Source: Bacillota bacterium
Lineage (GTDB): Bacteria > Bacillota_I > Bacilli_A > ML615J-28 > CAG-698
Length of the DNA: 44,013 nucleotides
Assembly: GCA_016280895.1 (NCBI GenBank)
Contig: JAEEHM010000099.1
Coordinates: forward strand, 1 to 44,013
Direction of reading: 5' to 3'
In this document: positions 4,797-42,583 of the stretch, one piece after another
Numbering within the stretch: the stretch's first letter is position 1
Layout of the letters: each line of letters opens with the position of its first letter
Notes under the pieces: model-generated
What the model saw: the letters and a program-made list of their open reading frames with translations, nothing else
Database searches by the model: none
What the model was told of the DNA's origin: nothing
Translations under genes and position numbers: made by a program

Positions 4797-7499
4797 CTAG
4801 CATTCCTCTACCATCTTCTTAACAGCATTAAATGCATCAAGAAGTTTGCTGATGTCTTTACCACCAGCTTGGGCGAAATCAGGACGTCCACCACCATTAC
4901 CACCAGTAATGATTGCTGCAGCCTTCACAATTTGACCAGCATTTAATGAAGATACTTTATTCTTGCATACAAAGATAATCTTTCCATCATTAACAAGCGC
5001 AAATAGTATCATTGAATTCTCTTTTTGTTCAGCTAGGCTATCAGCTAAATCTTTTACACTAGCAAGATCACTATCTTTAATTTCTTTCATTAACACATTA
5101 ACATTATTTATTAGTTCAAAATCTTTGTTGAAAGAATTAATATCAAGCGCATTCTCACTCTTTGCTTTTTGATTAACTTTCTTTTCTAATTGCTTAGCTA
5201 ATTCTTTTAATTCATTTGCGTATTCTTTAACTTCAACAATATATTCATATGATTCAAAATATGCAGGCTTATTTAATTTAACTTCTTCTTTTAATACTTC
5301 TTTATAAGAATTGATTCTTGCTTCTAATGCTTGAATATCCTTATAAATATTTTCTAAAGTCTTATCAATTGCAGCCTTAATCATATCATTACTTGCAGCT
5401 TCAATTCTAAAAATACCAGATCCCTTAGATTCAATTCCTAGAATTGTGAAGTGCTTAATTTCTTTAGTATTTTTAACATGGCAACCACCACAAAATTCTT
5501 TTGAATAGTCCATATCAACAACACGAACCATCTTTCCATACTTCTCGCCGAATACTGCTTGTGCTCCAAGCTTCTTTGCTTCTTCAATTGGAAGAACCTT
5601 AGTAGATACTTCAATTTCATCTTCTATTTTTTGATTAACGATTTTTTCCACCTTTAATAATTCATCTTTAGTAAACATATTAAAGTTGTTGAAATCGAAT
5701 CTTAAGAATTCAGGTGATACATAAGAACCTTGTTGAAGAATGTGTTTTCCACCAACTTCTCTTAGTGCTTCATTCATTAAGTGAGTAGCACTATGGTTGC
5801 ATTGAATGTAGAATCTTAACTTTTTATCAACACATGCTTTTACGACATCGCCCTTATGAATCTCTACATCCTTCATATCAACAAGCATACCTGCTTGGCC
5901 ATTAGGTAATTTCAAAGTATCTAATACTTCGAAGTCTTCACCATTTAAAGAGATGCTTCCTCTATCACCAATTTCACCACCCATTTCAGCATAGAATGGA
6001 GTTTCTTTTAATACGATAACAGCTTTACCACTTGCACTTTGTGCTTCTTTATCATTGCTGAATAGACCAACAACTTCAGATGTTGCTTCTAAATTATCAT
6101 AACCAATAAATGTCGATTCTTCTTTGAATTTCATCATATCAGCATTTTGAACATTCATTGATTGCATAGCACCACGAGCTTTTCTAGCTCTTTCTTTTTG
6201 CTTTTGAAGTTCTTCTTTGAAGCCTTCTTCATCAACAAGATAGCCAGATTCTTCTGCTACTTCTTTTGTTAACTCTAGAGGGAAACCAAATGTATCATAA
6301 AGCAAGAAAGCAGTTGCTGCATCAATTTTCTTATCCTTACTAGAAGCCATAAAGTCTCTTAATTTCTTTTCACCAGATTCTAGTGTTGTCAAGAATTTTT
6401 CTTCTTCTTGCTTAATTTGTTGCGTTACAATTGCTTCTTTTTCAAGTAAGTAAGGATAGAATACTTCCATTAATTCTACACATGGTCTTACCAAACGATA
6501 TAAGAAAGCCTCATTCATACCTAACTTTTTACCATATCTAACTGCTCTTCTTAAGATTCTTCTTAAAACATAGCCACGGCCTTCATTAGAGAATGTAGCA
6601 CCATCAGAAAGCGCAAATACTGTACTTCTTACATGGTCTGCAATTACCTTAAATGCCATTTGGCCCTCGTATTTAATACCAGTAATTTCTTCAGTCTTAT
6701 TGATAATTGGCATAAATAAGTCAGTATCATAATTTGTTTCTACTTCTTGCATTACACAAGCAAGACGCTCTAAACCAGAACCGGTATCAATATTTTTAGA
6801 AGGAAGCTCTTTATATTCACTTCTCTTAACACCAATCTTCGAATTGAATTGTGATAATACTATATTCCAAATTTCAATATAACGATCATTTTCAATATCA
6901 TCTTTAATCATTCTTGGACCAATATTATCTTTATCGTATTTTGTTCCTCTATCAAAGAAAATCTCTGTATCAGGTCCACATGGTCCTTCACCAATTTCCC
7001 AGAAATTATCTTTTACAGGAACTAAATGATCAGGACTAATACCACATTCAACCCATCTATTAAATGTATCAGTATCATCTGGATAATATGTAATATATAA
7101 TTTATCTTTAGGGAAATCAAACCATTCTTTAGATGTTAGTAATTCTACTGCCCATTTAATCGCATCATCTCTAAAATAATCACCAACAGAGAAATTTCCC
7201 AACATTTCAAAGAATGTATGATGTCTTGCAGTTTTACCAACATTTTCAATATCATTAGTTCTAATTGATTTTTGGGCATTAGCCATTCTTCTATTTTGAG
7301 GGATTTCTCTTCCATCAAAATATTTCTTTAATGGAGCAACACCGGCATTAATCCAAAGTAAAGTTGGATCATTATGTGGTATTAATGATGCACTAGGGAT
7401 AATATCATGTCCCTTTGATTTCCAAAAATCCAACCACATTTGTCTGATTTCATAAGCTTTCATTTTCTTCATAATTTTATACCTTCTTTCATTTTGCAT
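4797..7499 (-). CDS. alaS: alanyl-tRNA synthetase (start may be internal at MKKMKAYEIRQ, near 7472)
   Basis: LFWINAGVAPLKKYF-type core, GRGYVLRRILRRAVRYG, HSATHLMNEALREVGG, CGGCHVKNTKEI, GGGGRPDFAQAGG. Confidence 0.97.
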   Translation of the reverse strand: MQNERRYKIMKKMKAYEIRQMWLDFWKSKGHDIIPSASLIPHNDPTLLWINAGVAPLKKYFDGREIPQNRRMANAQKSIRTNDIENVGKTARHHTFFEMLGNFSVGDYFRDDAIKWAVELLTSKEWFDFPKDKLYITYYPDDTDTFNRWVECGISPDHLVPVKDNFWEIGEGPCGPDTEIFFDRGTKYDKDNIGPRMIKDDIENDRYIEIWNIVLSQFNSKIGVKRSEYKELPSKNIDTGSGLERLACVMQEVETNYDTDLFMPIINKTEEITGIKYEGQMAFKVIADHVRSTVFALSDGATFSNEGRGYVLRRILRRAVRYGKKLGMNEAFLYRLVRPCVELMEVFYPYLLEKEAIVTQQIKQEEEKFLTTLESGEKKLRDFMASSKDKKIDAATAFLLYDTFGFPLELTKEVAEESGYLVDEEGFKEELQKQKERARKARGAMQSMNVQNADMMKFKEESTFIGYDNLEATSEVVGLFSNDKEAQSASGKAVIVLKETPFYAEMGGEIGDRGSISLNGEDFEVLDTLKLPNGQAGMLVDMKDVEIHKGDVVKACVDKKLRFYIQCNHSATHLMNEALREVGGKHILQQGSYVSPEFLRFDFNNFNMFTKDELLKVEKIVNQKIEDEIEVSTKVLPIEEAKKLGAQAVFGEKYGKMVRVVDMDYSKEFCGGCHVKNTKEIKHFTILGIESKGSGIFRIEAASNDMIKAAIDKTLENIYKDIQALEARINSYKEVLKEEVKLNKPAYFESYEYIVEVKEYANELKELAKQLEKKVNQKAKSENALDINSFNKDFELINNVNVLMKEIKDSDLASVKDLADSLAEQKENSMILFALVNDGKIIFVCKNKVSSLNAGQIVKAAAIITGGNGGGRPDFAQAGGKDISKLLDAFNAVKKMVEEC

Positions 7500-7730
7500 A
7501 TAGGAATAAAAAAATCCTATATGAAATAATTCATATAGGAGCGATTTTTCAAACGCGGTACCATCCTACTTACAAATAAAATTTGTATCTTAATTAGTTG
7601 TTAACGCCAACATACGAAAGATTTTCATCTTTAGCTCCAAAGTAGCATTAATCTTTTATTCTTAAGCTTTTCACCTACCAGCTCTTCTCTAAGCGAAATC
7701 AAAGACTAAATTCTTTTTCATAGCTCTATT
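7500..7730 (-). ncRNA. T-box leader, probable tRNA-Ala sensor upstream of alaS
   Basis: Minus strand shows AGGATGGTACCGCG (T-box), AGAGAAGAGCTGGTAGGTGAAAAGCTT (stem I) and a candidate GCU specifier in AATGCTACTTTGGAG (7644-7646). Confidence 0.92.
7505..7545 (-). terminator. T-box intrinsic terminator
   Basis: Minus strand: TCCTATATGAA TTAT TTCATATAGGA TTTTTTT. Confidence 0.9.
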
Positions 7731-9593: not shown

Positions 9594-12500
9594 TTATTCA
9601 GCCTTTGCCCAAACAGCTTTTACTTCTAAGTTTTGCTTTAATGAAGCAGGGAATGATGTAAATATTTGACCATTAGCATCTTCCCAAGCAACGAATGTGA
9701 AGCCTTCTTTTTCAGGAGCAGATACTTCTAATCCGTGGCCATAAACATATTTAACTTCGTTTTCTTCAAACCATTCGCCACCATTTAAGTCAAACTTAAC
9801 TGTAAATGTATTAGCTTCAGCATCTGCATCACCTATAGCAGGAACTTCTGTCATATCTGTATATTTAACTTCAGCTAAAGTATTTTGAATCTTATCAGAT
9901 GGATCACCACCATCCCAGTAACAATTATTAGCATCAATTTGGATACTTGAAGCATTCATAATAATTAATGAATTACATTCTGGGTTAGCTTGATGATCTG
10001 TGATAATATTGTTGTTTGCCTTAATAGTTGTATTTGTAGGAAGACTAGCAATACTATTTCTAACAAATCCAACGCAACTATTTATTGTATTATAATTGAT
10101 GTTAAATTCTAATGTTTCTTCTGCTGTACCTTTGTAAGCATTTAGAGTTATAACACCATGATAATAAGTACCTGAATTAGTACCACAATTTTCAAATGTA
10201 TTATTCAAAATATTATATGTACCAGCACCAATTGCTCTTAGCCAAATTACATATTGTTGATAATTTGAGAATACATTGTCAGAAATTGTCACATTACCTT
10301 TAACACCAAAAGCACCACTATTGTCAACTTTAATTGCATCATTGTAATTATTACGTTTAGCATTAAATACATTACCAACTATAGTTAAATTTTCAATATC
10401 CTTAATAAACATAATCATAGGACGATCAGATTCAACGCCTTCTAAAGCATATTCATATCTACTATCCTTCAAAGTAACATTTTTAATTGCCTTATCAGCA
10501 GCAGCTACTAAATGAATAGGGGCAGTGCCATTAGTGTTTCCAGCATTTACAGAACTAGCATTGAAAAATACTTTTTCAATTGTTAAGTTTTCAAATTCAG
10601 CTTCATTAGCAAATACTCTAGCAGCACCAGTTAATTCTATACCTTTTAATGTAACATTGTTTGCACCAATTACTAAGTCACTATTGAAGATAGCTTCTTC
10701 AGCTCTAGGACCAAAATTAGGATTTTGGTTAGCATTAGGACCTAAGATTGTGATACCAGCAGTTGCAATTGTAGCACCAGCATATGTACCAGCAGCAACT
10801 TTAATTGTAGAGTTTTCAGCAGCAACAGCTAATGCAGCTTCTAATGTAGCGAATGCGTTTGTGCCAACAACATATCTAGCTTTTCCGAATGTTACATAAG
10901 CACCAGCTTCTAAGCCTTCAGCTTTTGCAGTAACAACTAAGAATTCAGTAGATTCAGTTACAGGCCATTCAACTTCATTAGCTGCAGGATTTGCTTTAAT
11001 ATAAGCATTTAATACAGCCTTAACATTATTTAAATCAGTGAAATCCATACTTTCAGTTAATACGCCACTGTCAATATGAGCATCCATAGATAATAAACCG
11101 TTAATATTAGCGATGAAGAACATCTTGTTATCTAATGTCCATTCATAACCTTCTTTTGAAGGATCTAATTCAGGTTGTTTAGCCAATTCAACTAATGCAT
11201 TAAATAACCAAGCCCATTTAGCTTTCATTTCAGCATTGTTATAGAAATCAACAAAATAACTTGTTTCAGTAGAACCTGTATCTAATTCAGTAATATCAGC
11301 GATACTAGCATCTGTGTGTTCATTAAAATCAGCAACGAATTCAGCAGCTAATTTGTTTGCTAAATTAGTGAATAAATATTTATCCATGATAGCATTGAAG
11401 TTTGCTTCATCAGAGAAATCCATACTTACAGAACCAAAGTGTGTATCTTTGTGTTCAGTTCTAGTAAGGAATCCGCAAAGGTTAGCAAAGAAGAATGGTT
11501 TATGGTTAGCTAAATCAAAATCAGCAGCACTTGGATCATGAGCTCCAGTACCTTCTAAATCAGATAATGCTTGGAATAACCAACCCCATTTATCAGCCAT
11601 ACCTTCAGCAGTATAGAATGTAACTAATTGACTAGAATCACAATGATCTGTATCAATATCACTAGCACTTGACCACTCAGTTCCAGCTTTTTCATTAACA
11701 TCAGCGATGAATGCTTGACCTAATAGATCTAATTCGCCTTCAACTTTTTCAGCAGAGAATGCAGATTTAACATCTTCAACTGGAGGTTCTTCATTTCCAC
11801 CACCGATAGGTTTTAATTCAGCAGTATAGAAGTAACCAGGGAATTGAGAAACACCAATCTTAGAAGCGTTATCGCCACTAATGTACTTAGTTTCAGATAA
11901 TGCAAATGTATTACCAACTTTACCCTTGTTTTCATAAGAACCGAAGTAAACAACAGCTGTAGCAGCAGCGCCATCTTTTTCATAAGAGATAGTAGCTGTT
12001 AATACGCCTAATGTAGCATCATATACCCATTCACCAGCAGCATCATCTAACTTCATGTTATTATAATTACCATTTCTATAAGCAACTAGATATTTGTCAC
12101 CTAATTTAATAGTATAAGTATTTTCTTTACCTTCAACAGCAGCAACAACGAAATCAGCAGCTTTAGCTAATTTATCAGTAGATGTTAAAGCACCTTTATC
12201 GTTTAATGCGCCATCAGCAAATAACATACCATAGCCTTCAACAGCGCTTTGATCCATACCAATCTTGTATGTTCCAGCAGCCATAGTAGCAAGTTTAGTT
12301 GCAACTAATTCAGCTTCTTGTAATGTATATAAGTAACCAGGGAATTGAGAAACACCAATCTTAGAAGCGTTATCGCCACTAATGTACTTAGTTTCAGATA
12401 ATGCAAATGTATTGCCAACTTTACCCTTGTTTTCATAAGAACCGAAGTAAACAACAGCTGTAGCAGCAGCGCCATCTTTTTCATAAGAGATAGTAGCTGT

Positions 12501-14180
12501 TAATACGCCTAATGTAGCATCGTATACCCATTCGCCAGCAGCAGCATCTAACTTCATGTTATTATAATTACCATTTCTATAAGCAACTAGATATTTGTCA
12601 CCTAATTTAATAGTATAAGTATTTTCTTTACCTTCAACGGCAGCAAGTACGAAATCAGCAGCTTTAGCAGGTTTATCAGTAGCAGTTAAAGCACCTTTAT
12701 CGTTTAATGCGCCATCAGCATATAATACACCATAACCAGCAACAGCGCTTTGATCCATAGCAATCTTGTATGTTCCAGGAGCAACTGTTTCAACTTTCTT
12801 GCCGATATATTGAGTGCTTGATGCAGCATCAACAGCAACTTCAAATGTAACTGTATCAGTAGCTTCACCAGCTTTTAATGTAGCAGTTAAAGTAACTTTG
12901 CAAGCTTCAGCAGGTAAAGTGAATGTAACTTTAGAGCCATCTTCAGCAACAACAGCACATGCATTGTCAGAAGCCCAAGAAATAGAAACTTGTTCGCTAT
13001 AAGCTAAACCAGCAGTTTGTAATTCAACAACTTTGTCTTCATCAACAGCAGTTACAGGAGCAAGTAAAGCACCCTTTTCATAAGCAACAGCTTCAGCATC
13101 AGAAAGAGCAGGAAGTTGTAAATTAGAGAATGCATCAGCAGTAACTGGAGTTAAGTAGAATGCACCATCATAAACACATACAACGCCAGTAGCATCAGCA
13201 GTGTAACCAGCTTTGTGGCTAGCTTTGAATGTAGCTTGATCATCTTTAGTTAATGGACATACAGATGAAGAAATTCTAATATAAGATTCTAATGAACCTA
13301 ATTTGAATTTATAATAACCACTTGCTAAATCATCTTCTGTTTCAACTGATAATGTAACACCCTTAATTGTAACAAGTAAGCCTTGTTTTCCAACTAATGC
13401 TTCATCTTTTAATGATTGAGCAGCAGTGAATGTAGCTGTGTAATCAGCAACTGGAACAGTAGCGATTTCCTTATTTAAGATTTCGTATGAGCATTTAGCT
13501 ACTTCTAATGTACCAGAATAGATATCCTTAGTACCAGTAACTCTTACTTCCATACCTTCTTTAACTTGGTTTTCACCTTCAGCAGATGGGTCTTCACTTA
13601 GACCATATGCATAATATGCACCATCAGCATCTTGTAAATATAAGCAGTTAGAAGAATTTCCTTTAGCCTTACCGATAACAGCTGTAACAACACCCTTAAC
13701 AGTAACTACAGCGCCTTTTTCAGCAGCGATGTATTCAGCATATGATAATTCTTTAAATGCTGGTACAGTGAAAGAATATTCTTTAGTAACTTCTTTGCCA
13801 TCTAAAGTAATAGTAGCTTTCAATGTATAAGCAATTTCAGTGCTTGATTTTTCATTTACGTCGATAGTATATTGAGTACCATCAGCATTTAATGTAACTA
13901 CAACGTCACTAGCTTGACCTTTAGTTACAGTTACAGTCCATGCAACATCTAGGCCTGTTGATTTAGCAACAACTGCCCAGTCTGCAGTAGTAACACCAGC
14001 TTTATCACGATATAAAGCATCGATGTAGTCGATAGCTGTTTTTAATTCAGCTGGGATTTCTGGTTTTGTTCCTCCGCCTTCTTGATCATCTGGTTTATTT
14101 GTGTCTTTATCGCAAGCGAATGCAAATAAACCAAGAACTGCGACTAGAAGAAACATAAAGAATTTTGTGAACTTTTTCAT
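9594..14180 (-). CDS. 1528-aa multidomain surface lipoprotein: OB-fold-like, Ig-like, two tandem ~150-aa modules, two copies of an unidentified domain, beta-helix, C-terminal InlB/Listeria-Bacteroides-type repeat
   Basis: Signal peptide with LGLFAFAC; VVTVKGVVTAVIGKAKGNSSNCLYLQDADG; beta-helix style region after ATLEAALAVAAENSTIKVAAGTYAGATI; C-term VKFDLNGGEW...GFTFVAWEDANGQIF. Confidence 0.8.
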   Translation of the reverse strand: MKKFTKFFMFLLVAVLGLFAFACDKDTNKPDDQEGGGTKPEIPAELKTAIDYIDALYRDKAGVTTADWAVVAKSTGLDVAWTVTVTKGQASDVVVTLNADGTQYTIDVNEKSSTEIAYTLKATITLDGKEVTKEYSFTVPAFKELSYAEYIAAEKGAVVTVKGVVTAVIGKAKGNSSNCLYLQDADGAYYAYGLSEDPSAEGENQVKEGMEVRVTGTKDIYSGTLEVAKCSYEILNKEIATVPVADYTATFTAAQSLKDEALVGKQGLLVTIKGVTLSVETEDDLASGYYKFKLGSLESYIRISSSVCPLTKDDQATFKASHKAGYTADATGVVCVYDGAFYLTPVTADAFSNLQLPALSDAEAVAYEKGALLAPVTAVDEDKVVELQTAGLAYSEQVSISWASDNACAVVAEDGSKVTFTLPAEACKVTLTATLKAGEATDTVTFEVAVDAASSTQYIGKKVETVAPGTYKIAMDQSAVAGYGVLYADGALNDKGALTATDKPAKAADFVLAAVEGKENTYTIKLGDKYLVAYRNGNYNNMKLDAAAGEWVYDATLGVLTATISYEKDGAAATAVVYFGSYENKGKVGNTFALSETKYISGDNASKIGVSQFPGYLYTLQEAELVATKLATMAAGTYKIGMDQSAVEGYGMLFADGALNDKGALTSTDKLAKAADFVVAAVEGKENTYTIKLGDKYLVAYRNGNYNNMKLDDAAGEWVYDATLGVLTATISYEKDGAAATAVVYFGSYENKGKVGNTFALSETKYISGDNASKIGVSQFPGYFYTAELKPIGGGNEEPPVEDVKSAFSAEKVEGELDLLGQAFIADVNEKAGTEWSSASDIDTDHCDSSQLVTFYTAEGMADKWGWLFQALSDLEGTGAHDPSAADFDLANHKPFFFANLCGFLTRTEHKDTHFGSVSMDFSDEANFNAIMDKYLFTNLANKLAAEFVADFNEHTDASIADITELDTGSTETSYFVDFYNNAEMKAKWAWLFNALVELAKQPELDPSKEGYEWTLDNKMFFIANINGLLSMDAHIDSGVLTESMDFTDLNNVKAVLNAYIKANPAANEVEWPVTESTEFLVVTAKAEGLEAGAYVTFGKARYVVGTNAFATLEAALAVAAENSTIKVAAGTYAGATIATAGITILGPNANQNPNFGPRAEEAIFNSDLVIGANNVTLKGIELTGAARVFANEAEFENLTIEKVFFNASSVNAGNTNGTAPIHLVAAADKAIKNVTLKDSRYEYALEGVESDRPMIMFIKDIENLTIVGNVFNAKRNNYNDAIKVDNSGAFGVKGNVTISDNVFSNYQQYVIWLRAIGAGTYNILNNTFENCGTNSGTYYHGVITLNAYKGTAEETLEFNINYNTINSCVGFVRNSIASLPTNTTIKANNNIITDHQANPECNSLIIMNASSIQIDANNCYWDGGDPSDKIQNTLAEVKYTDMTEVPAIGDADAEANTFTVKFDLNGGEWFEENEVKYVYGHGLEVSAPEKEGFTFVAWEDANGQIFTSFPASLKQNLEVKAVWAKAE
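11830..12279. repeat. copy 1 of a ~450-bp intragenic direct repeat
   Basis: Near-identical to 12331-12780 at a 501-bp offset. Confidence 0.95.
12331..12780. repeat. copy 2 of the ~450-bp intragenic direct repeat
   Basis: Near-identical to 11830-12279; scattered substitutions, in frame. Confidence 0.95.
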
Positions 14181-24086: not shown

Positions 24087-24127
24087 GTTCTAATCATCTT
24101 TAATGATAATTAGAACTTATTTTTTTA
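24087..24127. terminator. bidirectional terminator
   Basis: taagttctaatcat ctttaa tgataattagaactta hairpin followed by T-run, between convergent genes. Confidence 0.85.
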
Positions 24128-25873
24128 TTGCATTATATAATATAGTGATTGCCAATTATCTCTTTTCTTCGCATATTGACTTTTTTTCATCACATCAATT
24201 GAATATTCTAATTTAGTTCTTTCAAATAATTCAGTTATATGATGAGCCTTAACTGCCTCACTAAAATCATCAATCATTTCATTTCGATCTTTCACATCCA
24301 TATCTAATCTTGTTAAATTTAGATAAGCTAAATTAAGTGATAATTCACCTAATCTAAAACGATATTTAGCTTCAGTTTCAATATATGCTTTATTAAGTAA
24401 ATTAGCAGCTTGTTCTTCTAATTTATCAGTAAACATAGGATGATCACTATCATCATATAACCATAAATCATATCCCTTAACAGCATCTTCAAATAAGAAT
24501 ATAAAATCAAATACAGCTTTAGCTGCTTTCTTTCCATAATATGCTTTACAGAATTCCATTACTTCATCTTCAAGTACAAGATTATCATATCGCATAAAAC
24601 GAGCGGCAATATATGCTTTTAGTTTATCTAAGTATCCTCCACCACCGTGAGAGAAATTACCTTGCATCAATAAGCCTTTCACATTGTTTTTCTTATAGAA
24701 TTCAATGTTTTTAGTCATACTTCTCAAATTAGGGAAAGGAAGTAAATAATTTCTAAAATTAACAGCATAATCCCAAATATAAAGTCTATTTGTAATTTTT
24801 GACCATTTCATGAAATCATCATAGAATAAACCACCTCTACTCTTTGGATTCATTCTATATTCTTCTTCAATTGATCTTGACCATGAACATTCAATATTAC
24901 ATAATCTCACAATTACATTCTTATCTGGTATTAAAGTTTTTGGAGGTTTACGTGAATATTGATATGCAAATGTATGTATTAACACATCTGGATATTCCTT
25001 ATTTACCTCTCTTGCAACTTTAGACACAAAATTAATAATCGATGCACTTTGTGCTTCTTCTTTATCATCAAGGGCCTTGCACTTATCACATTCACATGCC
25101 ATCTTAATAAAGTGACCCATCCATTCATCTTGAGCTACAGAAAAGATATGACAATCCATATGATTTCTTTTCCATTCTTTCACTTTTTCAACAGCAAGTT
25201 TAAATACATCTTCATTTGATAAACAAAGTTCAGTATGTTCCTTTACTCTATGACCATCAATATATGAAAAATATTCTGGATGTGTATCAAAATATTCTTT
25301 TGGACTAACAATATCAGAAAATGAATGGTGGAAATTGAACCATTTATTTTTACCGCCTTCTCTTTCGCCTAAATCAGCCAAATTACTATTCAACATATTT
25401 TTAGATGCAAAACAAGATGTAAAAGCATCAGTGAAATATACTTCACGATATTCAAATTTGAAATCAAAGATGATTTCATTTTTAAACACAATATCATCTA
25501 CTTCCTTATAAGTTTCACAATCAGACGCAAAGCATCGAAAATGAATATAATCTTCTAAGAAACGATATACTGCATATAAAATAGCTCTTGGTGAATTACC
25601 ATCAATAATTAAATCATCACCAACTTCTTTAATTATAAAAGCTTCATCACTTAAATTATTTAATCTTTCATCTTTCTTATTGCCACGTGCCCTACCAATT
25701 ATAATTTCTTTACCATATTTATCGCACTTATCAGAATATATAGGTAGTGGACAATTAGTACTTAAATATAAATATTTTTCAAGTTCACTAGCTGCAAATC
25801 TTTCACATACGCTAGCATCCTTATTATTCACAATATAATATTCACTTCTTTGATTTTTAATAATTTCTAACAT
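24125..25873 (-). CDS. DUF4838 domain protein (alpha-glucuronidase-like N-terminus)
   Basis: ERFAASELEKYLYLST..., IIIGRARGNK, GNSPRAILYAVYRFLEDY, EYFSYIDGHRVKEHTELCLSNEDV; start assigned to MLEIIKNQ (RBS just upstream) rather than the longer ORF start at 25933. Confidence 0.8.
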   Translation of the reverse strand: MLEIIKNQRSEYYIVNNKDASVCERFAASELEKYLYLSTNCPLPIYSDKCDKYGKEIIIGRARGNKKDERLNNLSDEAFIIKEVGDDLIIDGNSPRAILYAVYRFLEDYIHFRCFASDCETYKEVDDIVFKNEIIFDFKFEYREVYFTDAFTSCFASKNMLNSNLADLGEREGGKNKWFNFHHSFSDIVSPKEYFDTHPEYFSYIDGHRVKEHTELCLSNEDVFKLAVEKVKEWKRNHMDCHIFSVAQDEWMGHFIKMACECDKCKALDDKEEAQSASIINFVSKVAREVNKEYPDVLIHTFAYQYSRKPPKTLIPDKNVIVRLCNIECSWSRSIEEEYRMNPKSRGGLFYDDFMKWSKITNRLYIWDYAVNFRNYLLPFPNLRSMTKNIEFYKKNNVKGLLMQGNFSHGGGGYLDKLKAYIAARFMRYDNLVLEDEVMEFCKAYYGKKAAKAVFDFIFLFEDAVKGYDLWLYDDSDHPMFTDKLEEQAANLLNKAYIETEAKYRFRLGELSLNLAYLNLTRLDMDVKDRNEMIDDFSEAVKAHHITELFERTKLEYSIDVMKKSQYAKKRDNWQSLYYIMQ

Positions 25874-25920
25874 ATTTACCTCTTTTTCTTTTATTATTAT
25901 ACCATATTTAGTCATATAAA

Positions 25921-25950
25921 AAAAGAACAACAATTGAAATTGTTATTCTT
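25921..25950 (-). terminator. intrinsic terminator after the PPTase gene
   Basis: agaacaacaat tgaa attgttattct with flanking A/T tracts. Confidence 0.6.
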
Positions 25951-26605
25951 TATTCATCAAGTCAGGAATTACGCAAAGATTTCTTTCTTTAAATAAATTC
26001 TTTTCCATTTTCTTAGTCAAATGAGCACCCACAAAACTTGCAATATAACCATCACAATAACAGGTAATATATTTCGCAATTGGATAATTTGCGTATACAA
26101 CAGTATTATCTTCATAATCAATCACAATATCATGAATATTTTTAATTAAACCAAGACCAATATATTTTAAATATGCTTCTTTAATAGTCCAGATTTGCGT
26201 AAAAGTAGTATTATCATCAGTATTATAGAAATTATAATCATTATCATTATAAACTCTTCTTGTTAATCTATCCAATCTATCCTCTTTAAAATTTTGAATA
26301 TATTGAACATCAACACCAATTTCTTCATCACTTAATGACATTAGACACATATCATTAGAATGAGAGATGTTGAAATGATAAGTGCCATCCTTGAAATCAG
26401 GTTTACCATATTGATTAAATACTAATGTTGAATCAAGATTTTCTTTTTCTACTACATACTTAAACAAGATATCCCTTGCTATTTTTTCTTTTCTTTTTGC
26501 AGCATTAGTGATATCTTTATATTCATCATTATTTGAAAATCCCTCAATTACTTCTTCTTTGATCGTACTAATCTTTAAGTAATAATTTTTCAACATAATC
26601 TTCAC
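25943..26605 (-). CDS. 4'-phosphopantetheinyl transferase, Sfp type
   Basis: FNISHSNDMCLMSLSDEEIGVDVQ; FTQIWTIKEAYLKYIGLGL. Confidence 0.9.
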   Translation of the reverse strand: MKIMLKNYYLKISTIKEEVIEGFSNNDEYKDITNAAKRKEKIARDILFKYVVEKENLDSTLVFNQYGKPDFKDGTYHFNISHSNDMCLMSLSDEEIGVDVQYIQNFKEDRLDRLTRRVYNDNDYNFYNTDDNTTFTQIWTIKEAYLKYIGLGLIKNIHDIVIDYEDNTVVYANYPIAKYITCYCDGYIASFVGAHLTKKMEKNLFKERNLCVIPDLMNKE

Positions 26606-26654: not shown

Positions 26655-26696
26655 TAAAAACGATTTCTAAAATTTCTTTTAAAAATCGTTTTTTTT
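26655..26696 (-). terminator. terminator of the cobalamin-riboswitch unit
   Basis: aaaacgattt...aaatcgtttt inverted repeat followed on the minus strand by a U-rich tract. Confidence 0.75.
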
Positions 26697-26697
26697 A

Positions 26698-27240
26698 TTA
26701 TTCATTTGTTTGGTCGATAATTACTTGTTCATCATTATCAATTAAATAAACATCATTTTTCTTTAATGCTTTGTAAAGTGGATTATATAACCACAATACT
26801 GTGATAACAGAACATGCCACTAACACAATTTCAAATGGTATGTCAGCAATAACATAGGCTTTGAAATCGACTTTATAAAAAACTACACTTGATAAGACGA
26901 AGATCCAACAATACAATAATGCTCCAATTCCTGCAACTGTTGCTTTTACATAGATATTTTTCTTTCTCACAAAATAACTTGCAAGCATTATTGTTTCCCA
27001 ACCAATAAACATTGGTAAGATTACATATAAGGTCATTGAACCTACAAATAGATTATCTAATAGTACATGCATTAACACAATTGCAGTTCCCCACTTAGGG
27101 CCACAATATGCTCCATATAGTACTAATAGTAATACTGTAAGTTGAACATTAGGAATAAATGATAGAGCTTCTTCTTGAACAAATATAATCGCTGTAAGAA
27201 TAGCAGTTACTACAACTTTTAAGATTAGTTTTTTTCTCAT
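26698..27240 (-). CDS. ECF transporter S component-like protein, probable cobalamin uptake
   Basis: Small multi-TM protein: TAILTAIIFVQEEALSFIPNVQLTVLLLVLYGAYCGPKWGTAIVLMHVLLDNL; downstream of a cobalamin riboswitch. Confidence 0.7.
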   Translation of the reverse strand: MRKKLILKVVVTAILTAIIFVQEEALSFIPNVQLTVLLLVLYGAYCGPKWGTAIVLMHVLLDNLFVGSMTLYVILPMFIGWETIMLASYFVRKKNIYVKATVAGIGALLYCWIFVLSSVVFYKVDFKAYVIADIPFEIVLVACSVITVLWLYNPLYKALKKNDVYLIDNDEQVIIDQTNE

Positions 27241-27638
27241 AGCTTAGTTTCCCTTAAACTTACTACTAATCCATCCTTTATTTTAATACCATCTATGGTG
27301 TAATTTGAATAAACATCATCAACATAGATAGCTAGATATGTAGTAGTAAAATCAGTTTTAACATCATCGATGTCATATAACCATACACCAGTTTGTGTTT
27401 CGCTATATCTTACAGTGTAGTTTTCTTTAATAATTGACCAAACAGAATCTCCCTCTTTATAATTAAATTCCCTTTTATTCACCTTATTATCAAGTGTCAC
27501 AATCTCAATAGTGATTGTGCCGACATCTTGAGATACTGCATTTTTCTTTTCTACTTGTTTTGCAATGATTAATGCTCCAATTGCGAGTGATAAGAAAAAT
27601 ACAGTAATAAGGACTTTAATCAGGATATTTTTACGCAA
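27237..27638 (-). CDS. membrane-anchored DUF4430 (transcobalamin-like C-terminal) protein
   Basis: N-terminal TM; VTIEIVTLDNKVNKREFNYKEGDSVWSIIKENYTVRYSETQTGVWLYDIDDVKTD...YLAIYVDDVYSNYTIDGIKIKDGLVVSLR. Confidence 0.75.
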   Translation of the reverse strand: MRKNILIKVLITVFFLSLAIGALIIAKQVEKKNAVSQDVGTITIEIVTLDNKVNKREFNYKEGDSVWSIIKENYTVRYSETQTGVWLYDIDDVKTDFTTTYLAIYVDDVYSNYTIDGIKIKDGLVVSLRETKL

Positions 27639-28863
27639 AGATGTTTACAGCCTTTCCAGAATCTCTTTGTGCTTTATAAGCCATTAAGCTAGCATAAATT
27701 TGGTTTGTAGAATAATTGATATCTGTATCTTCTTTACTCCATTTAACAAGACCTAAATCAGCATCATAATAATCAAGAACTAATTGAAGTAAATCTTTAC
27801 CACTTTCATCTTTTACTTCTCTTGCATTGATATTATTTGCAGCAAGTGGAAGTAACATTAATGCAGTTGAGCATCCATTTCCTTGATCAGCAGCAGTGAT
27901 ATTATTTAATTCTTCTAAAGTGAAAGTCTTAAATACTGATAAGTTAGTCATTTGCCAGTTCCAACCATCAAGACCCCATTCAGTGCCAGCTCTATATTCA
28001 GTAGTTGATAAAGCAGTAACAGCATCAGATGTAACCTTTAATGCATAAGCAGGTGATAGATAGAATGGAGTTGCGTATTCATTGTATGCAGTATCAGCAG
28101 CTAAATTAGTCATATAAGTAGTATATGCAGCAGCAAATGCTGTTAAATCTAAATTAAGTGCTCTAGCAGCATAGAAATATTTACCCCATGTAGCACCATC
28201 ATATTCAGCAAAGTTTTCAGCTTCTAGTGCAGTCTTTAAAGCGGCATCAAATTTATTAGCATTAAATAAATTAGCATCATAACCAGCTGTCTTCATCATA
28301 TAAAGACTCATTGCTGACCAATAATCAACAGTCTTCATATCTTTAGAATTAGCAACAACTTTAGAGAAAGTATTCTTCATATAAGAATAAATAATCTTAT
28401 CAACTAATACATCACTAGCATCTAATTTGCCGTAACCTGATTCTACAGTGTTCCAACATTCAGCAATAAATTCAAATTTATCGCCATCATCAATTACTAA
28501 ACCATCAACACCAGTTGAAGCATAAGCACCATTTTCATAAAGTGCTAAATACCAATTAGCATCAACGATTGAGTTTGAAATTGAAGCAACGCTTGTACCA
28601 TAATCAGTCTTGTATGTTACAGCATTCATTTCATTATTAATAGCATCTAATACTGATGCTTGATCTTTAGTAGAAAAAGTCTTTTCAGCAAGTACTTTAC
28701 CATCAATATCTACAACCTTAACTGAATAAGATTTGTATGTTTCAACAACTGGTGGTTCAGGAGTATTTCCTCCATCCTTCTTCTCATCATCTGCTTTCTT
28801 ACATGCGAAAGCAAATAATCCAAGTAATAAAACTAAGATTAAACAAAGTCTTTTCTTAAACAT
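27631..28863 (-). CDS. lipoprotein with N-terminal DUF4430-like domain and C-terminal prenyltransferase-like alpha/alpha-toroid; candidate B12-binding protein
   Basis: Lipobox LGLFAFAC; SYSVKVVDIDGKVLAEKTFSTKDQASVLDAINNEM...WYLALYENGAYASTGVDGLVIDDGDKFEF; then helical repeats; directly after a B12 riboswitch. Confidence 0.75.
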   Translation of the reverse strand: MFKKRLCLILVLLLGLFAFACKKADDEKKDGGNTPEPPVVETYKSYSVKVVDIDGKVLAEKTFSTKDQASVLDAINNEMNAVTYKTDYGTSVASISNSIVDANWYLALYENGAYASTGVDGLVIDDGDKFEFIAECWNTVESGYGKLDASDVLVDKIIYSYMKNTFSKVVANSKDMKTVDYWSAMSLYMMKTAGYDANLFNANKFDAALKTALEAENFAEYDGATWGKYFYAARALNLDLTAFAAAYTTYMTNLAADTAYNEYATPFYLSPAYALKVTSDAVTALSTTEYRAGTEWGLDGWNWQMTNLSVFKTFTLEELNNITAADQGNGCSTALMLLPLAANNINAREVKDESGKDLLQLVLDYYDADLGLVKWSKEDTDINYSTNQIYASLMAYKAQRDSGKAVNIFA

Positions 28864-28884
28864 TAAAATTTTTAACTATTTATT

Positions 28885-29090
28885 AACTTCCATCGTCTCC
28901 CAGCGTTTTCCATTATAAACAGCTTTCCTCATATTAAATTACTTAGGCAAGTCTCCTGGCTTAACATCATCTTCCATACCCCTTCTCACATATTTGCAAT
29001 GGTTTGGTATTTCATCCGTATCACAGTTGCTGGGACAGTCCAAGATTCACACTTGTGTTCCTTATTAAGTATTCCTACACCTAGCATTGT
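28885..29090 (-). ncRNA. cobalamin (B12) riboswitch
   Basis: Minus strand: AGGTGTAGGAAT...AAGGAACACAAGTGTGAATCTTGGACTGTCCCAGCAACTGTGATACGGATGAAA...GTGAGAAGG...GATGATGTTAAGCCAGGAGACTTGCC; includes the classic B12 box. Confidence 0.96.
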
Positions 29091-29144
29091 ATATTATATC
29101 ACTTTTTAAAAATATATGCGAATATATAAAGATTTCTTTACAAA

Positions 29145-31611: not shown

Positions 31612-32712
31612 CTATAAATTATATTTTTTTCTAACTATAAAATAAAAACTTAACATCACTATTGATATCACGATTCCCATAATTGGAATTGCGATATAAT
31701 ATTTAGTTTCAAAATAAACATCACCAGCACCAACAGCAGGAATGCCAGCTGGATCTTGAGGTAAACCATATTCATATGCTATCTTTGTGATATTCAACAT
31801 TTGAATAATCGGAATGCCATTTTCTAAATAAGTTTCTAGTAGACCCTTATGATCCAAATCAGTACTAGATTTATTTAAAGTCAAATAATTAGGTTTTACT
31901 AAACCACGATAATTAACAGCATTAGTATAACCATTTCCCATCGACACAATTGTTCCACCAACATTTAAAAATAATTTTAAATTTGGACATTTTTCTTCAA
32001 TATATTCTATTCTTTTTTGAATGTTTTTCTTAAAATCACTTTCACTTATGAACTTTACAGCACTAGAATTAATTCTTAGCATCAATTCTTCTCTTACATC
32101 ATTAGGAAATTCTGAGCCATCATCATAAGCACCACCAAAGGATACATAATCTAACTTATTCTCATATATACCAAGTTCGTATAAATAATTGGCCATATCA
32201 AAATAAGTAAAACTAATATCTGTAGCACCATAACTAGAAGCACCAATACCTGTCATAGATATAAATTTAAGTCCATATTCCTGCGCCGCAATTGTTGCTG
32301 AAATGTTTAATGCAGGGAAAGATCCCGATGTAACAATCGCAATTTCATCACCGCTTTTTAAATTAGCTTCCTTAAACATCTTAATGTATACAGCTGCAAA
32401 ATTAGGATTTGTGCTTGTTCTTTTAGCTGCAGGTTCTCCTTCAGTAGTTTGAATCTTACTATGAAGTGGACCTAACATACCACTTTGATATTTATCTTCA
32501 CTACTTAAGCTTAAACCTAATTCTTGTTTCTTTTCTTTTATTTTTTGAAAAGCAAGTTCTGCTTTTTGGCTTGCACTTTCCATTATTTCGTAATAGCGGT
32601 CTTTCGTTGATGTGCTTGTAGTAATTGTAAGCATATATATTACGATAAGTAGTGCACCCCAAAAGGCAAGTAAAATATTTATGTATTTGGGGCTCTTATC
32701 TTTAACTACCAT
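31612..32712 (-). CDS. pgsW: poly-gamma-glutamate system protein PgsW
   Basis: Directly after pgsC; membrane-anchored, FKEANLKSGDEIAIVTSGSFPALNISATIAAQEYGLKFISMTGIGASSYGAT, LNVGGTIVSMG, QDPAGIPAVGAG. Confidence 0.8.
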   Translation of the reverse strand: MVVKDKSPKYINILLAFWGALLIVIYMLTITTSTSTKDRYYEIMESASQKAELAFQKIKEKKQELGLSLSSEDKYQSGMLGPLHSKIQTTEGEPAAKRTSTNPNFAAVYIKMFKEANLKSGDEIAIVTSGSFPALNISATIAAQEYGLKFISMTGIGASSYGATDISFTYFDMANYLYELGIYENKLDYVSFGGAYDDGSEFPNDVREELMLRINSSAVKFISESDFKKNIQKRIEYIEEKCPNLKLFLNVGGTIVSMGNGYTNAVNYRGLVKPNYLTLNKSSTDLDHKGLLETYLENGIPIIQMLNITKIAYEYGLPQDPAGIPAVGAGDVYFETKYYIAIPIMGIVISIVMLSFYFIVRKKYNL

Positions 32713-32713
32713 C

Positions 32714-33160
32714 TTATGCTCCTATGATATTTCCGATAAAGACCACAAACTCAATAATACACATTACAACAACAAGCGAAGGAATAGTTTTTGCTACTCC
32801 TTGTTTTGAAATGTCATTCGCAATTAGACCCGCAATTGTGTATCCAATTAAGGATATACTCAATAAATGAATTGAGAGTCCATTGATAATTAATTCCAAA
32901 ACAATATTCAATAAAATACTAATAATTATCATTATCGCAAATCTACGTTTACCAAAAATAATCAAATACCTCGAAATAAATTTCACAATATAATAAGTAA
33001 TAACAGCAACAATTATTGTGTACACAATTCTTTGCGGCTGATTAATATACATTGCAAGCAATCCCGGTACAATAATACCACCTGGAGAAATATGAGTAAT
33101 CTCATAAAAAATGATACTAATTAAAATACCTAATACCAACACATTGAAATCAATTGTCAT
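32714..33160 (-). CDS. pgsC: poly-gamma-glutamate biosynthesis protein PgsC/CapC
   Basis: LGILISIIFYEITHISPGGIIVPGLLAMYINQPQRIVYTIIVAVITY; about 148 aa, 4-nt overlap with pgsB. Confidence 0.92.
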   Translation of the reverse strand: MTIDFNVLVLGILISIIFYEITHISPGGIIVPGLLAMYINQPQRIVYTIIVAVITYYIVKFISRYLIIFGKRRFAIMIIISILLNIVLELIINGLSIHLLSISLIGYTIAGLIANDISKQGVAKTIPSLVVVMCIIEFVVFIGNIIGA

Positions 33161-34272
33161 AGCTTTTCACCATTTTTTCTGAAATACTCAAGTATTTTCA
33201 TTCCCTTTCCACCGATATTACCAATTGCGAAAATTATATCTTCATGATTTAAATCTTCAATTTTGTGTAATCGATTAACTTCTATACTAATTCCATTCTT
33301 TTTCAATCTTTTAATAATGTAATTAGGATTAGATCCATATATTAAAATCTTCTTTGCTTTTAAATTACTTAAAAGCTCAATATGTTGTACTACCCTACTA
33401 GGTCTATCAAATCTACTATTAAGTAGGATTGTTAATGAATTATAATCATATTCTTCTATTACTTGATTATATACTATTCTAATTGATTCTGGGTCATTAA
33501 TAGAGAAACCATTTAAAAATATTGTGTTATCATATTTTATCTTTTCATATGCTCCAATATCATGATGATAATTCTTCATTCCTTCAAAGAATTTATTTAC
33601 ATCAAGATTAAATGCTTTCGCAACTTCTAGTGCACACGCAATATTTTCTTTAAATGTTTCTAAATTATCACCATCATATTCACTTGCAAGCAATACCTTA
33701 GCATCCTTTTTTTTCGCATTTTCTTCAAAGATATTTAAAAACTTATCTTCGCCACATACTAATATTCCCTTATTTGGAATTGTGTTAGAAAAAGAATATG
33801 CGATATCTTCTAAAGTACTACCCATCTCATCCAAATGGTCTGCACGTACATTTGTAATAACTGTACAATCACTTCTTAATATCATCTCTTCAGATATTTT
33901 TTGAAGTTCTGGTTTAACTGCCATACATTCTAATATTAAGACCTCTGCACCTTCCTTATATGCACGTCTCATCATTTGGATTTGTTCACGAATATTCGCA
34001 TTACCCAATCTTTTAATTAATACATCTTCATTATTAGTATTAATGTACATCGGCTTAGTACCTGTAGTTTTACTAAAAACCTTATAGCCACAGGCTCTAA
34101 AACCAGCATCAATTAATCTAGTAGTTGTTGATTTTCCTCTAATTCCATTAACATGAATAAGGTATTTAAATGATTTTCTTATCTTATTTATATATATTTT
34201 TTCAAGCACAATATAAGTAAGATAGCCAATCATCAAAACTAATACTACTATTGTGATAAACATCTTATTCAC
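33157..34272 (-). CDS. pgsB: poly-gamma-glutamate synthase PgsB/CapB
   Basis: IHVNGIRGKSTTTRLIDAGFRACGYKVFSKTTGTKPMYI; ECMAVKPELQKISEEMILRSDCTVITNVRADHLDEMG. Confidence 0.95.
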   Translation of the reverse strand: MNKMFITIVVLVLMIGYLTYIVLEKIYINKIRKSFKYLIHVNGIRGKSTTTRLIDAGFRACGYKVFSKTTGTKPMYINTNNEDVLIKRLGNANIREQIQMMRRAYKEGAEVLILECMAVKPELQKISEEMILRSDCTVITNVRADHLDEMGSTLEDIAYSFSNTIPNKGILVCGEDKFLNIFEENAKKKDAKVLLASEYDGDNLETFKENIACALEVAKAFNLDVNKFFEGMKNYHHDIGAYEKIKYDNTIFLNGFSINDPESIRIVYNQVIEEYDYNSLTILLNSRFDRPSRVVQHIELLSNLKAKKILIYGSNPNYIIKRLKKNGISIEVNRLHKIEDLNHEDIIFAIGNIGGKGMKILEYFRKNGEKL

Positions 34273-38656: not shown

Positions 38657-41600
38657 TTATTTTTTTGTAATATTCAAACAAGCACCTAATACACCATACA
38701 TAATATATGGATAATCTTTTGAACCAGTTGAAGATTGAATGATATACATTTCACCAGTATAGCCATAAGTGAAGATTGTAGCACCAGCAGTAGCTGTTGT
38801 ACCATATTGATTATCATTGCTTACACTATCAACGATAGTATTAGCATATAACCATTCATTATTGTTTACAGCCTTAGCAAGTGACATACCATGAGTACCA
38901 AAATAGCACTTCTTTCCACTTGTGATATTATATCCTGTACCAGGTACTACAACTGTATCAGTAATTGCAGCATCGTCTGCTAATGATCCCTTGAAGAAGA
39001 TAGAGAATGTATAATTACTAGTTCTTCCAATATAGAATGGATTTTCATTAGTACCAACTAACTTATATACTGTATATTCATGAGTTGTTGCACACTTAAC
39101 ACCATTCTTAGTAATAGTTAACATTAATGCAGCGATATCATCTTGACTATCAATTGTATGTTCTGCATCAACTGTTGGGTTAAACCATGAAGTACCTTCT
39201 TCTACGCCAGTCTTAGTAGCTGATGTTGAATCAGTAGCTTGAACAGCTTGACCTTTCTTAGTTAAGTTAGTTAATTCAACTTTATCACCAACAGCAAGTG
39301 GAGTTGTATCTTCACCAAATGTAATATCATATTTTTCATACTTAACTTCACCAGCAAATGCATCTAAACCGATAATATTAGTACCATCTGTTAAGTACAT
39401 TGCTTGTGTAGGATAAGTTGCAATTGTACCGCTTGAACCAGTTGCAAATCCAGCAACAGTTGCAACCATAACTTCTACTGTAGATTCATCAGCTAAAGCT
39501 AATACTTCAGCTACTGTTAATTTAGCAGCTTCAGCAGCTTTTAAAGTAATAGTGAATGCTTTTGTTAATTCCTTAGTGCCAACCATAACTTTTGCAGTTA
39601 AAGTAACTTCTGTATCACTTGTTACTGCATTGTATGCACCAGCAGCAGTCATAACATCTGAATTACTTGTTTCCCAAGTAACATCTAATTCACCATCAGC
39701 ATTGTAAGTAACTTTTGCAGGAAGTGCAAGTTCACCAGCAGATGCAGCAGAAATTTCAGTAGCAGAGATGAAGTCTTCCATCTTAGCTGAAACGATATTT
39801 TCAATTGTTTCATTAGCATCAATTTCAATTGGCTTAATTAATGTCCATGCTTGCATTGTAGCACCATTATATCCACCAACAGCATAAATAGTAGCATAGA
39901 TTGTGAAGCACTTAGAACCAGTTGTAGCTGGAATTCCAACTGCTGTCCACCATTCATTAGCAGGGTCTAATAATTGATAAGCACCTAAACTAATTACTAA
40001 GCTTCTATTTGTTCCATTCATTGAATATCTAGCATCAGCAGATGATGCAGCACCCTTATAATTGATTTGATAACGTGGGTTCTTAGAAGTTGAACCAGTA
40101 CCAACTAAATTAATCTTTCCACTGAATTTAACAACTAAACCTCTAGTTGCATTATGTCCAGCTAAGAATGTAGCTAATTCTTCATCACTATCAACATCAG
40201 CAGCAAGTTCTAATTGGCTATAATCAATAGTATTGCCAGAAGATTGAATAACAACTGTACCACCTTGTAAAGTAGCACCATCATCATCAATTGAAATTGA
40301 AGCACCTCTGATTTGTAGTAAATCACCAGCTTTAATATCATTTTCACCTACTTTGTAATCAGTTGTTTGATAATAAACAACTCTCTTACCATCAGTAAGC
40401 ATGATACCATTACGATGTTCTTCACTATTTTCAGAAGATGTACCAATAGCAGCAACGTAAGCATTTAATTTAGCGATTGTGCCATTACCAGCAGTGATAG
40501 CTTCACTAATTGTAACTGGAGTAATTTCAGCAGCTAACATTGAAACCTTAATAGAGAATGAATATTCTTTTAAGTTGCAAGTATATTTAGCAGTTAAAGT
40601 AACTTCAGCTGGATCTAATAATTGAGGATATGCACCAGTTGTTGCATTAATTAAATCATTATTAGAAGATTCCCAAGTAATAGCATATTCAGTTTCATCA
40701 ACTGTAACACTTGCAGGAAGTGCGAATGTACCAGCTTCTTGAGCAACAACTTCTAATTCAACGTTTTCTTCAATTTCATTTCTAACTTTTTCGCTTACAT
40801 CTTGTACGCAAGCACCAGCATTAGGAATGATGAAAGGCCACTTAGTTTCGCCAAGTTGATATACAGAATATGCATAAATAACAGTTCCTGTATAATGGTT
40901 AGCACCTTCAGTCTTAATTGGAACATTATATTGAGATTCCCATTGAGTCATTCCGTTTACTGCAAAGTTAGCAACTAAGAAACAGAATTGTCTAGAATTG
41001 ATTAAACCATTAGCAGCAGAATCTTTTCCAGGTCCAAATTGATACCAATTGAATGAAGTTGAACCAGAAGCAACCATCCAAGGATTTACAACCTTATAAA
41101 GAACGATTTCTTGATGATGGTTATCAATAACAGCTTGATAATCATCGGCAGTTCTTAATTCAATAGGGTTAAGTGTACTATAATCTAAAGGACTTCCTTC
41201 TTCAGTTACTTTGAATGATTTAACATCTTGGAATGCTTTTAATTCTTCATGATCACCTAAAGCAGACCATTTAGCAACAACTTGAACTTTATTACCAGAT
41301 TTAACACTAGCTCTTTGTTCAGAAGATGCGCATACGATAGCATATTCTTTAGTGTTTTCATCAAATAAAATAACATAGCTATAAGGACTAGATTCATGGC
41401 TTAAACCAGTAGCAGCTACAGTAGCATTTAATACTACATAGTTTTCCTTAGTTTTACCAGTTGCAAGATCAACACTTTCAATTGCTTTTACAGTAGTATT
41501 GAAATCTTGACTAGCACTCTTTTCACCAGCAGAGATAGTTAATGTTAATACAACAGCACTATCAGCAGTTAATGATAAATCAACACTAGCCTTATTATCA

Positions 41601-42583
41601 GCAATAGTAATACCATTACCAGACTTAACAGTCCATTCAAATTTAACACCAGGTTCAGCTTCATATAAAGTAGTAAGTTCTAATGTACCCCATACTTCTT
41701 CTTCAACTGAAACACTTGCAAATACTTCATCCTTAACAGTATCAATATCAACGATGTATTCTTCAATTGTATCAGCAAATGCGTAAGCAATCCAACCATC
41801 GATACCATCACCCATCTTTAATAAAGTGATGTTAGCACTGATCTTTTTACCAACTTGATCTGCAAATGCTTGTTTACAAGAATCATCAAATAAGATTGTA
41901 CCAGTACTATCAGTCCAGAACATTCTATTTGCTTCATCAAGTGAAATAGCACCAGTTAAATTAAATAATTTACCATAATTAGCTCTATCACTTGCAGCTA
42001 ATGCTTGAACAGCTTCAATTGTAGTTGCACTAGCAGAAATAGCAGTTTTACCACTTGATAATACTTCAACACTAGCATTCTTAACGAAGATTTGACTAGC
42101 AGCAACAGAAAGTTTACCACTTAATTTAACTTCATCACCTAGTTTTAATGTAGCTAATTTGCTAGATTGTGAATCAGCAAGTTTAGCATATAAACCTGTA
42201 GTTCCATCAGATAGATAGAAACCATCATTTGTTTTAGCAAATACAACACCAACTACATCTACTGCACTATTATTTGCACCAGCAATAGCATCAGCAACTG
42301 TAGCAAGTTTCGCAATTTCTTCGGTCTTAGTAGCACCACAAACTGTACAAGTATAAGTTTTTTCACCCTTTGCACTTGAAGTTGCAGCCTTTGTTACTTT
42401 ACCTTCATCCCATGTATGTGCAGCCTTTTCAGATACTTCATCACAATGTGAGCATTCATGCCAGTGATTTTCAGCATCGAAAGACCAATCTGTTGAAAAC
42501 TTATGAGTGTCTTTCTTACAAGCAGCTAAGCCTAAAACAAGACAGAACATAATAACAGCAATAACAAAAATTCTTTTTTTCAT
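38657..42583 (-). CDS. 1308-aa lipoprotein with Cys/His-rich N-terminal motif, repeated OB-fold-like and bacterial Ig-like domains
   Basis: Lipobox LGLAAC; HWHECSHCDE...HTWDEGKVTKAATSSAKGEKTYTCTVCGATKTEEI; VDVVGVVFAKTNDGFYLSDGTTGLYAKL; TLPAKVTYNADGELDVTWETSNSDV-type Ig repeats. Confidence 0.75.
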   Translation of the reverse strand: MKKRIFVIAVIMFCLVLGLAACKKDTHKFSTDWSFDAENHWHECSHCDEVSEKAAHTWDEGKVTKAATSSAKGEKTYTCTVCGATKTEEIAKLATVADAIAGANNSAVDVVGVVFAKTNDGFYLSDGTTGLYAKLADSQSSKLATLKLGDEVKLSGKLSVAASQIFVKNASVEVLSSGKTAISASATTIEAVQALAASDRANYGKLFNLTGAISLDEANRMFWTDSTGTILFDDSCKQAFADQVGKKISANITLLKMGDGIDGWIAYAFADTIEEYIVDIDTVKDEVFASVSVEEEVWGTLELTTLYEAEPGVKFEWTVKSGNGITIADNKASVDLSLTADSAVVLTLTISAGEKSASQDFNTTVKAIESVDLATGKTKENYVVLNATVAATGLSHESSPYSYVILFDENTKEYAIVCASSEQRASVKSGNKVQVVAKWSALGDHEELKAFQDVKSFKVTEEGSPLDYSTLNPIELRTADDYQAVIDNHHQEIVLYKVVNPWMVASGSTSFNWYQFGPGKDSAANGLINSRQFCFLVANFAVNGMTQWESQYNVPIKTEGANHYTGTVIYAYSVYQLGETKWPFIIPNAGACVQDVSEKVRNEIEENVELEVVAQEAGTFALPASVTVDETEYAITWESSNNDLINATTGAYPQLLDPAEVTLTAKYTCNLKEYSFSIKVSMLAAEITPVTISEAITAGNGTIAKLNAYVAAIGTSSENSEEHRNGIMLTDGKRVVYYQTTDYKVGENDIKAGDLLQIRGASISIDDDGATLQGGTVVIQSSGNTIDYSQLELAADVDSDEELATFLAGHNATRGLVVKFSGKINLVGTGSTSKNPRYQINYKGAASSADARYSMNGTNRSLVISLGAYQLLDPANEWWTAVGIPATTGSKCFTIYATIYAVGGYNGATMQAWTLIKPIEIDANETIENIVSAKMEDFISATEISAASAGELALPAKVTYNADGELDVTWETSNSDVMTAAGAYNAVTSDTEVTLTAKVMVGTKELTKAFTITLKAAEAAKLTVAEVLALADESTVEVMVATVAGFATGSSGTIATYPTQAMYLTDGTNIIGLDAFAGEVKYEKYDITFGEDTTPLAVGDKVELTNLTKKGQAVQATDSTSATKTGVEEGTSWFNPTVDAEHTIDSQDDIAALMLTITKNGVKCATTHEYTVYKLVGTNENPFYIGRTSNYTFSIFFKGSLADDAAITDTVVVPGTGYNITSGKKCYFGTHGMSLAKAVNNNEWLYANTIVDSVSNDNQYGTTATAGATIFTYGYTGEMYIIQSSTGSKDYPYIMYGVLGACLNITKK

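Follow-up and report, generated by a model that had tools for sequence, protein, structure and literature searches.

The 44,013-nucleotide stretch of DNA analysed here (the window), which belongs to a 1.81 Mb assembly (125 contigs, 84% complete) of a Gram-positive-type bacterium from gut or sediment, carries what is probably a B12-repressed operon for the uptake of corrinoids. A riboswitch, three genes and a terminator form a compact three-gene operon (Table 1) that encodes, in order, a lipoprotein with a predicted transcobalamin-type beta domain, a small DUF4430 protein with a membrane anchor and the S component of an ECF transporter. The initial annotation had read these genes as a riboswitch-controlled B12 uptake module, and this reading is now backed by the riboswitch itself, by the relationship of the S component to the cobalamin transporter CbrT, by a shared set of ECF genes and an adenosylcobalamin (AdoCbl)-dependent enzyme elsewhere in the genome, and by the B12-using enzymes and adenosyltransferases encoded next to the module in relatives.

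Table 1. Features of the operon, with positions in the window.
Feature	Position	Strand	Evidence or remark
Candidate promoter, TTCGCA-18-TATAAT with TG before the -10 element	29093-29122	(-)	just upstream of the riboswitch; weak evidence
Cobalamin riboswitch aptamer, RF00174, full length (1-189)	28928-29099	(-)	82.3 bits; gathering score 31.5
Lipoprotein gene, 410 aa	27631-28863	(-)	first gene
Predicted transcobalamin-type beta-grasp (SLBB/DUF4430) domain of the lipoprotein, residues 45-136	28456-28731	(-)	pLDDT mostly about 80-95
Predicted all-helical, alpha-toroid-like C-terminal domain of the lipoprotein, residues 149-402	27658-28419	(-)	predicted structure and weak matches
DUF4430 protein gene, 133 aa	27237-27638	(-)	TTG start; overlaps the stop of the lipoprotein gene
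ECF S component gene, 180 aa, CbrT-related	26698-27240	(-)	4-base overlap with the DUF4430 gene
Intrinsic terminator hairpin followed by a T-rich tail	26656-26693	(-)	-15.5 kcal/mol, z -4.7

The overlapping gene ends, present at both junctions as originally described, together with the flanking signals identify the three genes as a compact operon. The riboswitch seen upstream of them is a full-length RF00174 aptamer, which moves the end of the unit from 29,090 to 29,099; no second RF00174 match was found in the assembly, and since the only one stands directly before these genes, its placement is not due to chance. The terminator, first placed at about 26,690, corresponds to an A/T-rich hairpin that was missed by the terminator scanner. 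Promoter-like sites, of which the candidate in Table 1 is one, are no commoner in the sequence than in shuffles. The riboswitch leader folded no better than shuffled sequences and contained no visible terminator, and an expression platform was not found in it. On the upstream side, a histidine-kinase gene ends immediately before the B12 unit, and a T-tailed hairpin in front of the unit looks, by eye only, like the terminator of that gene. Downstream of the operon lie genes for a phosphopantetheinyl transferase (25943-26605, minus strand) and a DUF4838 protein (24125-25933, minus strand) weakly similar to GH67 and NAGLU N-terminal domains.

The lipoprotein begins with a signal peptide and Cys21, a lipoprotein cysteine that is kept in 38 of 39 relatives, and is predicted to be exported and held at the surface by the acylated cysteine. 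Its predicted structure (pLDDT 75.6) comprises a beta domain followed by helices, with the boundaries given in Table 1. The initial annotation had called it a DUF4430/alpha-toroid protein; the DUF4430 part stands by fold, the sequence score of 15.4 bits lying under the Pfam cut-off, and PF14478 is matched by 28 of 41 homologous lipoproteins at E 0.01. In the PDB the model is matched best by 3u7z, a DUF4430 protein, and by the human transcobalamin beta domain in its apo and cobalamin-bound forms (5no0 and 5np4; for 5no0, E 5e-4, probability 1.00 and TM 0.70). These are followed by whole transcobalamins, intrinsic factor and haptocorrin, for which little over 100 columns were aligned, about the size of the beta domain. 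The 267-residue intrinsic factor chain 2pmv_B, taken to be the separate alpha domain of that protein, is matched weakly (probability 0.89, TM 0.45, E 0.13).

The assignment of the helical domain as an alpha-toroid is moderately supported. Among the helical parts of 36 relatives, the families matched by more than one member were PF00432 (in five), PF01122 (in two, best E 0.00045) and an unrelated DUF (in two); the first two, matched weakly, are alpha-alpha toroid families, the second being that of the eukaryotic cobalamin-binding protein. A profile of just the helical domain matched nothing in the PDB beyond helical-repeat proteins, by chance, and was discarded. The predicted structure agrees with the order first reported for the two domains, beta before toroid; this order is indeed opposite to that of the animal proteins, but it is not new, as Burroughs et al. 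2007 (PMC1796856) already describe toroids on either side of the beta domain.

The second protein is, as originally proposed, a DUF4430 protein with a transmembrane anchor: residues 7-25 form the N-terminal anchor, by which it is predicted to sit at the membrane, and PF14478/DUF4430 is matched with 24.0 bits, just above the Pfam cut-off of 23.8. About half of the anchored DUF4430 proteins contain a pair of cysteines (columns 154 and 165 of alignment A5), which the window protein lacks; the pair could form a disulfide, perhaps in a transcobalamin-type insert.

The third protein is recognisable as an ECF-type S component, both by the Pfam family ECF_trnsprt (35 bits against a cut-off of 30.7) and by six hydrophobic segments and a predicted six-helix fold (pLDDT 86) that matches 4huq_S, RibU, BioY and ThiT. 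Such fold matches are general and do not tell vitamins apart. A profile built from 51 S-component sequences, searched against all PDB sequences, gave a single match, 6fnp_A (E 9e-7), over nearly its full length and with a PNVQ motif common to the family and to 6fnp_A. With a profile of 12 sequences no S component had been reached, and its sole match, to FliQ, was due to chance. Entry 6FNP is ECF-CbrT, and CbrT transports both cobalamin and cobinamide (PMC5997447); chain A, 182 residues long, is taken to be the S component CbrT because of its length. In this sequence search, the S component of the window groups with CbrT rather than with the S component of another vitamin, and it would be expected to bind and transport cobalamin. 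Grouping with a different vitamin family was the outcome that the initial annotation had named as refuting its proposal.

No EcfA or EcfT gene had been seen nearby, and a shared energising module had been expected. A single EcfT gene occurs in the genome, with two ECF ATPase genes ahead of it and truA behind (ecfA-ecfA'-ecfT-truA, on contig C122), and there are seven PF12822 S components. A shared ECF module serving several S components is the group II arrangement, and the S component of the operon presumably partners this EcfAA'T module. A search for B12-dependent enzymes, also suggested at the outset, turned up a glmS-mutL-glmE operon on contig C100, which encodes AdoCbl-dependent glutamate mutase. 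Glutamate mutase needs AdoCbl. Searches of the 84% complete genome found no CbiC, of de novo corrin synthesis, and no PduO- or CobA-family corrinoid adenosyltransferase; the adenosyltransferase is either missing from the assembly or of another type, or AdoCbl is imported ready-made. In the nearest genus mate, the S component and any PF02310 match are both absent.

Of 100 related genomes, 19 have a homologue of the lipoprotein, and when 19 neighbourhoods were fetched through these matches, 16 proved to contain RF00174. A second sample, which overlaps the first in part, several contigs having equal lengths in both, was obtained by scanning a single S-component motif over bacterial and archaeal species genomes; its 51 loci are named as Acholeplasmataceae, Anaeroplasma, Izimaplasma/Izemoplasma, Erysipelotrichaceae, Holdemanella and similar bacteria. 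RF00174 stands upstream in 44 of these loci, and five of the remaining seven have less than 1.6 kb of contig ahead of the S gene. In nearly all 51 loci an anchored DUF4430 gene lies directly 5' of the S gene (this second gene has DUF4430 sequence support in 28 of 48 cases at E 0.01, the others being assigned by position and alignment), and in 38 a longer lipoprotein gene precedes it. About eleven loci have the DUF4430 and S genes only, without a lipoprotein, and in L031, L035, L036 and probably L113 the lipoprotein consists of the helical domain alone. The existence of toroid-only lipoproteins and of modules reduced to DUF4430 and S component indicates that it is the DUF4430 protein with which the S component is constantly paired, so that these two form the core of the module and the toroid lipoprotein is an add-on for capture.

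The genes next to the module in relatives point to the use of B12. In L035 the genes glmS-mutL-glmE come after the module; in L054, L056 (Floccifex porci) and L065 it is metH that does so, accompanied by its activation domain or metF. In L106 the module has histidine-degradation genes on one side and a complete cluster for lysine fermentation on the other. This cluster ends in the AdoCbl-dependent lysine 5,6-aminomutase, whose gene, among the genes found, could be placed on the contig of the module for L067/L106 only. Adenosyltransferases of the PduO or CobA type are encoded beside the module in seven loci (L109, L116, L118, L119, L120, L121 and L122). Across the 100 related genomes, a PF02310 B12-binding protein above the cut-off is present in all 20 genomes with a strong S match and in 36 of the other 80 (p 1.5e-6, uncorrected for kinship), PF02310 occurring also in enzymes of uncertain B12 need. 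As a separate observation, in L074, L083, L092 and L094 the same lysine cluster, just downstream of the module, has a lysine riboswitch ahead of its start. Another variant is found in L124, L125, L127 and L128, where a longer S component is encoded together with EcfT and a fused double ATPase, and with RF00174 in the first two loci and a DUF4430 gene in the last two; these units apparently represent a dedicated, non-shared cobalamin ECF system.

The arrangement found here suggests a route in which low intracellular cobalamin would lead the riboswitch to permit expression and the lipoprotein, whose acylated cysteine would hold it on the outer face of the membrane, would clamp cobalamin between its beta-grasp domain and the helical toroid in the manner of animal transcobalamin. 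The anchored DUF4430 protein, positioned beside the S component, would then receive or clamp the corrinoid, and the CbrT-related S component would bind it and topple it inward on joining the shared EcfA-EcfA'-EcfT. The imported vitamin would serve the AdoCbl-dependent glutamate mutase (GlmS-MutL-GlmE) in the fermentation of glutamate and histidine. Binding of B12 by each of the three proteins is predicted, and the hand-over from lipoprotein to anchored DUF4430 protein to S component is suggested in this order because some of the genes are dispensable in relatives, where modules keep DUF4430 and S without the lipoprotein. More tentatively, and with less than even confidence, we propose that the system may behave as a two-chain transcobalamin, the toroid of the lipoprotein and the separate anchored beta domain closing on B12 in trans before passing it to the CbrT-like S component. 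If true, the ECF transporter would have a capture relay of its own outside the cytoplasm, although S components of this class are usually thought to bind their substrate without one.

Other readings of the same genes were weighed against uptake of cobalamin by such a relay. The machinery could be as described and its physiological cargo a precursor or another cobamide, such as cobinamide or pseudo-B12, a view favoured by the dual specificity of CbrT (PMC5997447) and by the CobA or PduO adenosyltransferases found beside the S component in some relatives. We consider it unlikely: CbiC of the de novo pathway is absent, and complete cobamides would account just as well for the metH and mutase neighbours. 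A different question is whether the DUF4430 proteins touch the vitamin at all, or are structural or gating accessory subunits of an S component that alone binds B12. ECF-CbrT does transport B12 in vitro without any such protein (PMC5997447), the DUF4430 protein accompanies the S component even where the lipoprotein is missing, and 3u7z, a relative of solved structure, bears the name of a putative metal-binding protein; yet the DUF4430 domain matches the B12-binding beta domain of transcobalamin, and in the lipoprotein it is fused to a toroid-like domain, the very combination of transcobalamin, which makes a purely accessory role improbable in our view.

Uptake of cobalt or another metal under B12 control can be brought forward on the grounds that B12 riboswitches also precede some cobalt transporters (PMC2667541) and that CbiO/CbiQ-like neighbours are mentioned by Burroughs et al. 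2007 (PMC1796856). However, CbiC is absent, so that importing cobalt to build corrins de novo seems to make little sense; CbrT is the only S component that the PDB sequence search matched, and the neighbours in relatives are B12-using enzymes and adenosyltransferases; we therefore rejected this explanation, which we regard as highly improbable.

Several known systems resemble parts of this operon. The closest transporter, ECF-CbrT of Lactobacillus delbrueckii (6FNP, PMC5997447), shares the S-component fold, significant similarity over nearly the full length, the PNVQ motif, a B12 genomic context and the use of a shared ECF module; the relationship is distant, as the profile E-value above indicates, and in the window two transcobalamin-like proteins of extracytoplasmic type are encoded in one transcription unit with the S component. 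Burroughs et al. 2007 (PMC1796856) describe secreted or surface SLBB and toroid proteins of low-GC Gram-positive bacteria, with the toroid on either side of the SLBB domain, often with a second SLBB paralogue in the operon and near CbiO/CbiQ-like genes, in bacteria without B12 synthesis; from these neighbours and this lack they predict B12 scavenging. Compared with those systems, the operon of the window has the S component alone and relies on a distant shared ECF module, and toroid-only lipoproteins with a separate beta domain occur among its relatives. The beta-domain fold, and probably a helical toroid, are shared with animal transcobalamin, intrinsic factor and haptocorrin, whereas the window protein is lipid-anchored, nearly unrecognisable by sequence, and does not have the toroid-then-beta order of that family, its beta domain preceding the helical one. 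Likened by name alone, the L. rhamnosus protein K8Q211 is annotated as 'Additional lipoprotein component of putative cobalamin ECF transporter' (PMC9963975), a name that already states the proposed role. Surface-exposed lipoproteins of gut Bacteroides also capture B12 (PMC6143338), an analogy only, in that surface lipoproteins of anaerobic gut bacteria bind the vitamin, with a different envelope and importer.

This kind of operon is accordingly already known as a prediction, from Burroughs et al. 2007 (PMC1796856), the characterised CbrT and the annotation name; what this analysis adds are the riboswitch statistics, the relationship to CbrT, the versions with the toroid only or DUF4430 only, and the enzymes encoded nearby. 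A search of mainly open-access literature found no experimental study of such a module. The analysis ties predicted bacterial kin of the human B12 carriers to an experimentally known type of importer and to B12-using enzymes. It makes testable, with small and expressible proteins, the use of extracytoplasmic substrate-binding partners by ECF transporters and the binding of B12 by bacterial toroid and beta-domain proteins as in transcobalamin, and it suggests how amino-acid fermenters that depend on B12, such as those of the Acholeplasma, Izemoplasma and Erysipelotrichales type, obtain the cofactor.

Several other features of the window lie apart from the operon. A T-box leader (RF00230, 98.7 bits, 7534-7730, minus strand) is located upstream of the alanyl-tRNA synthetase gene (4797-7499). 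The region 31612-34272 (minus strand) encodes a poly-gamma-glutamate system protein (TIGR04332, 288 bits), close to a gene resembling those of Mur ligases, and these genes possibly serve poly-gamma-glutamate synthesis. Finally, the minus-strand genes at 9594-14180 and 38657-42583 encode proteins of 1528 and 1308 aa in which only an atrophied bacterial Ig domain was recognised.
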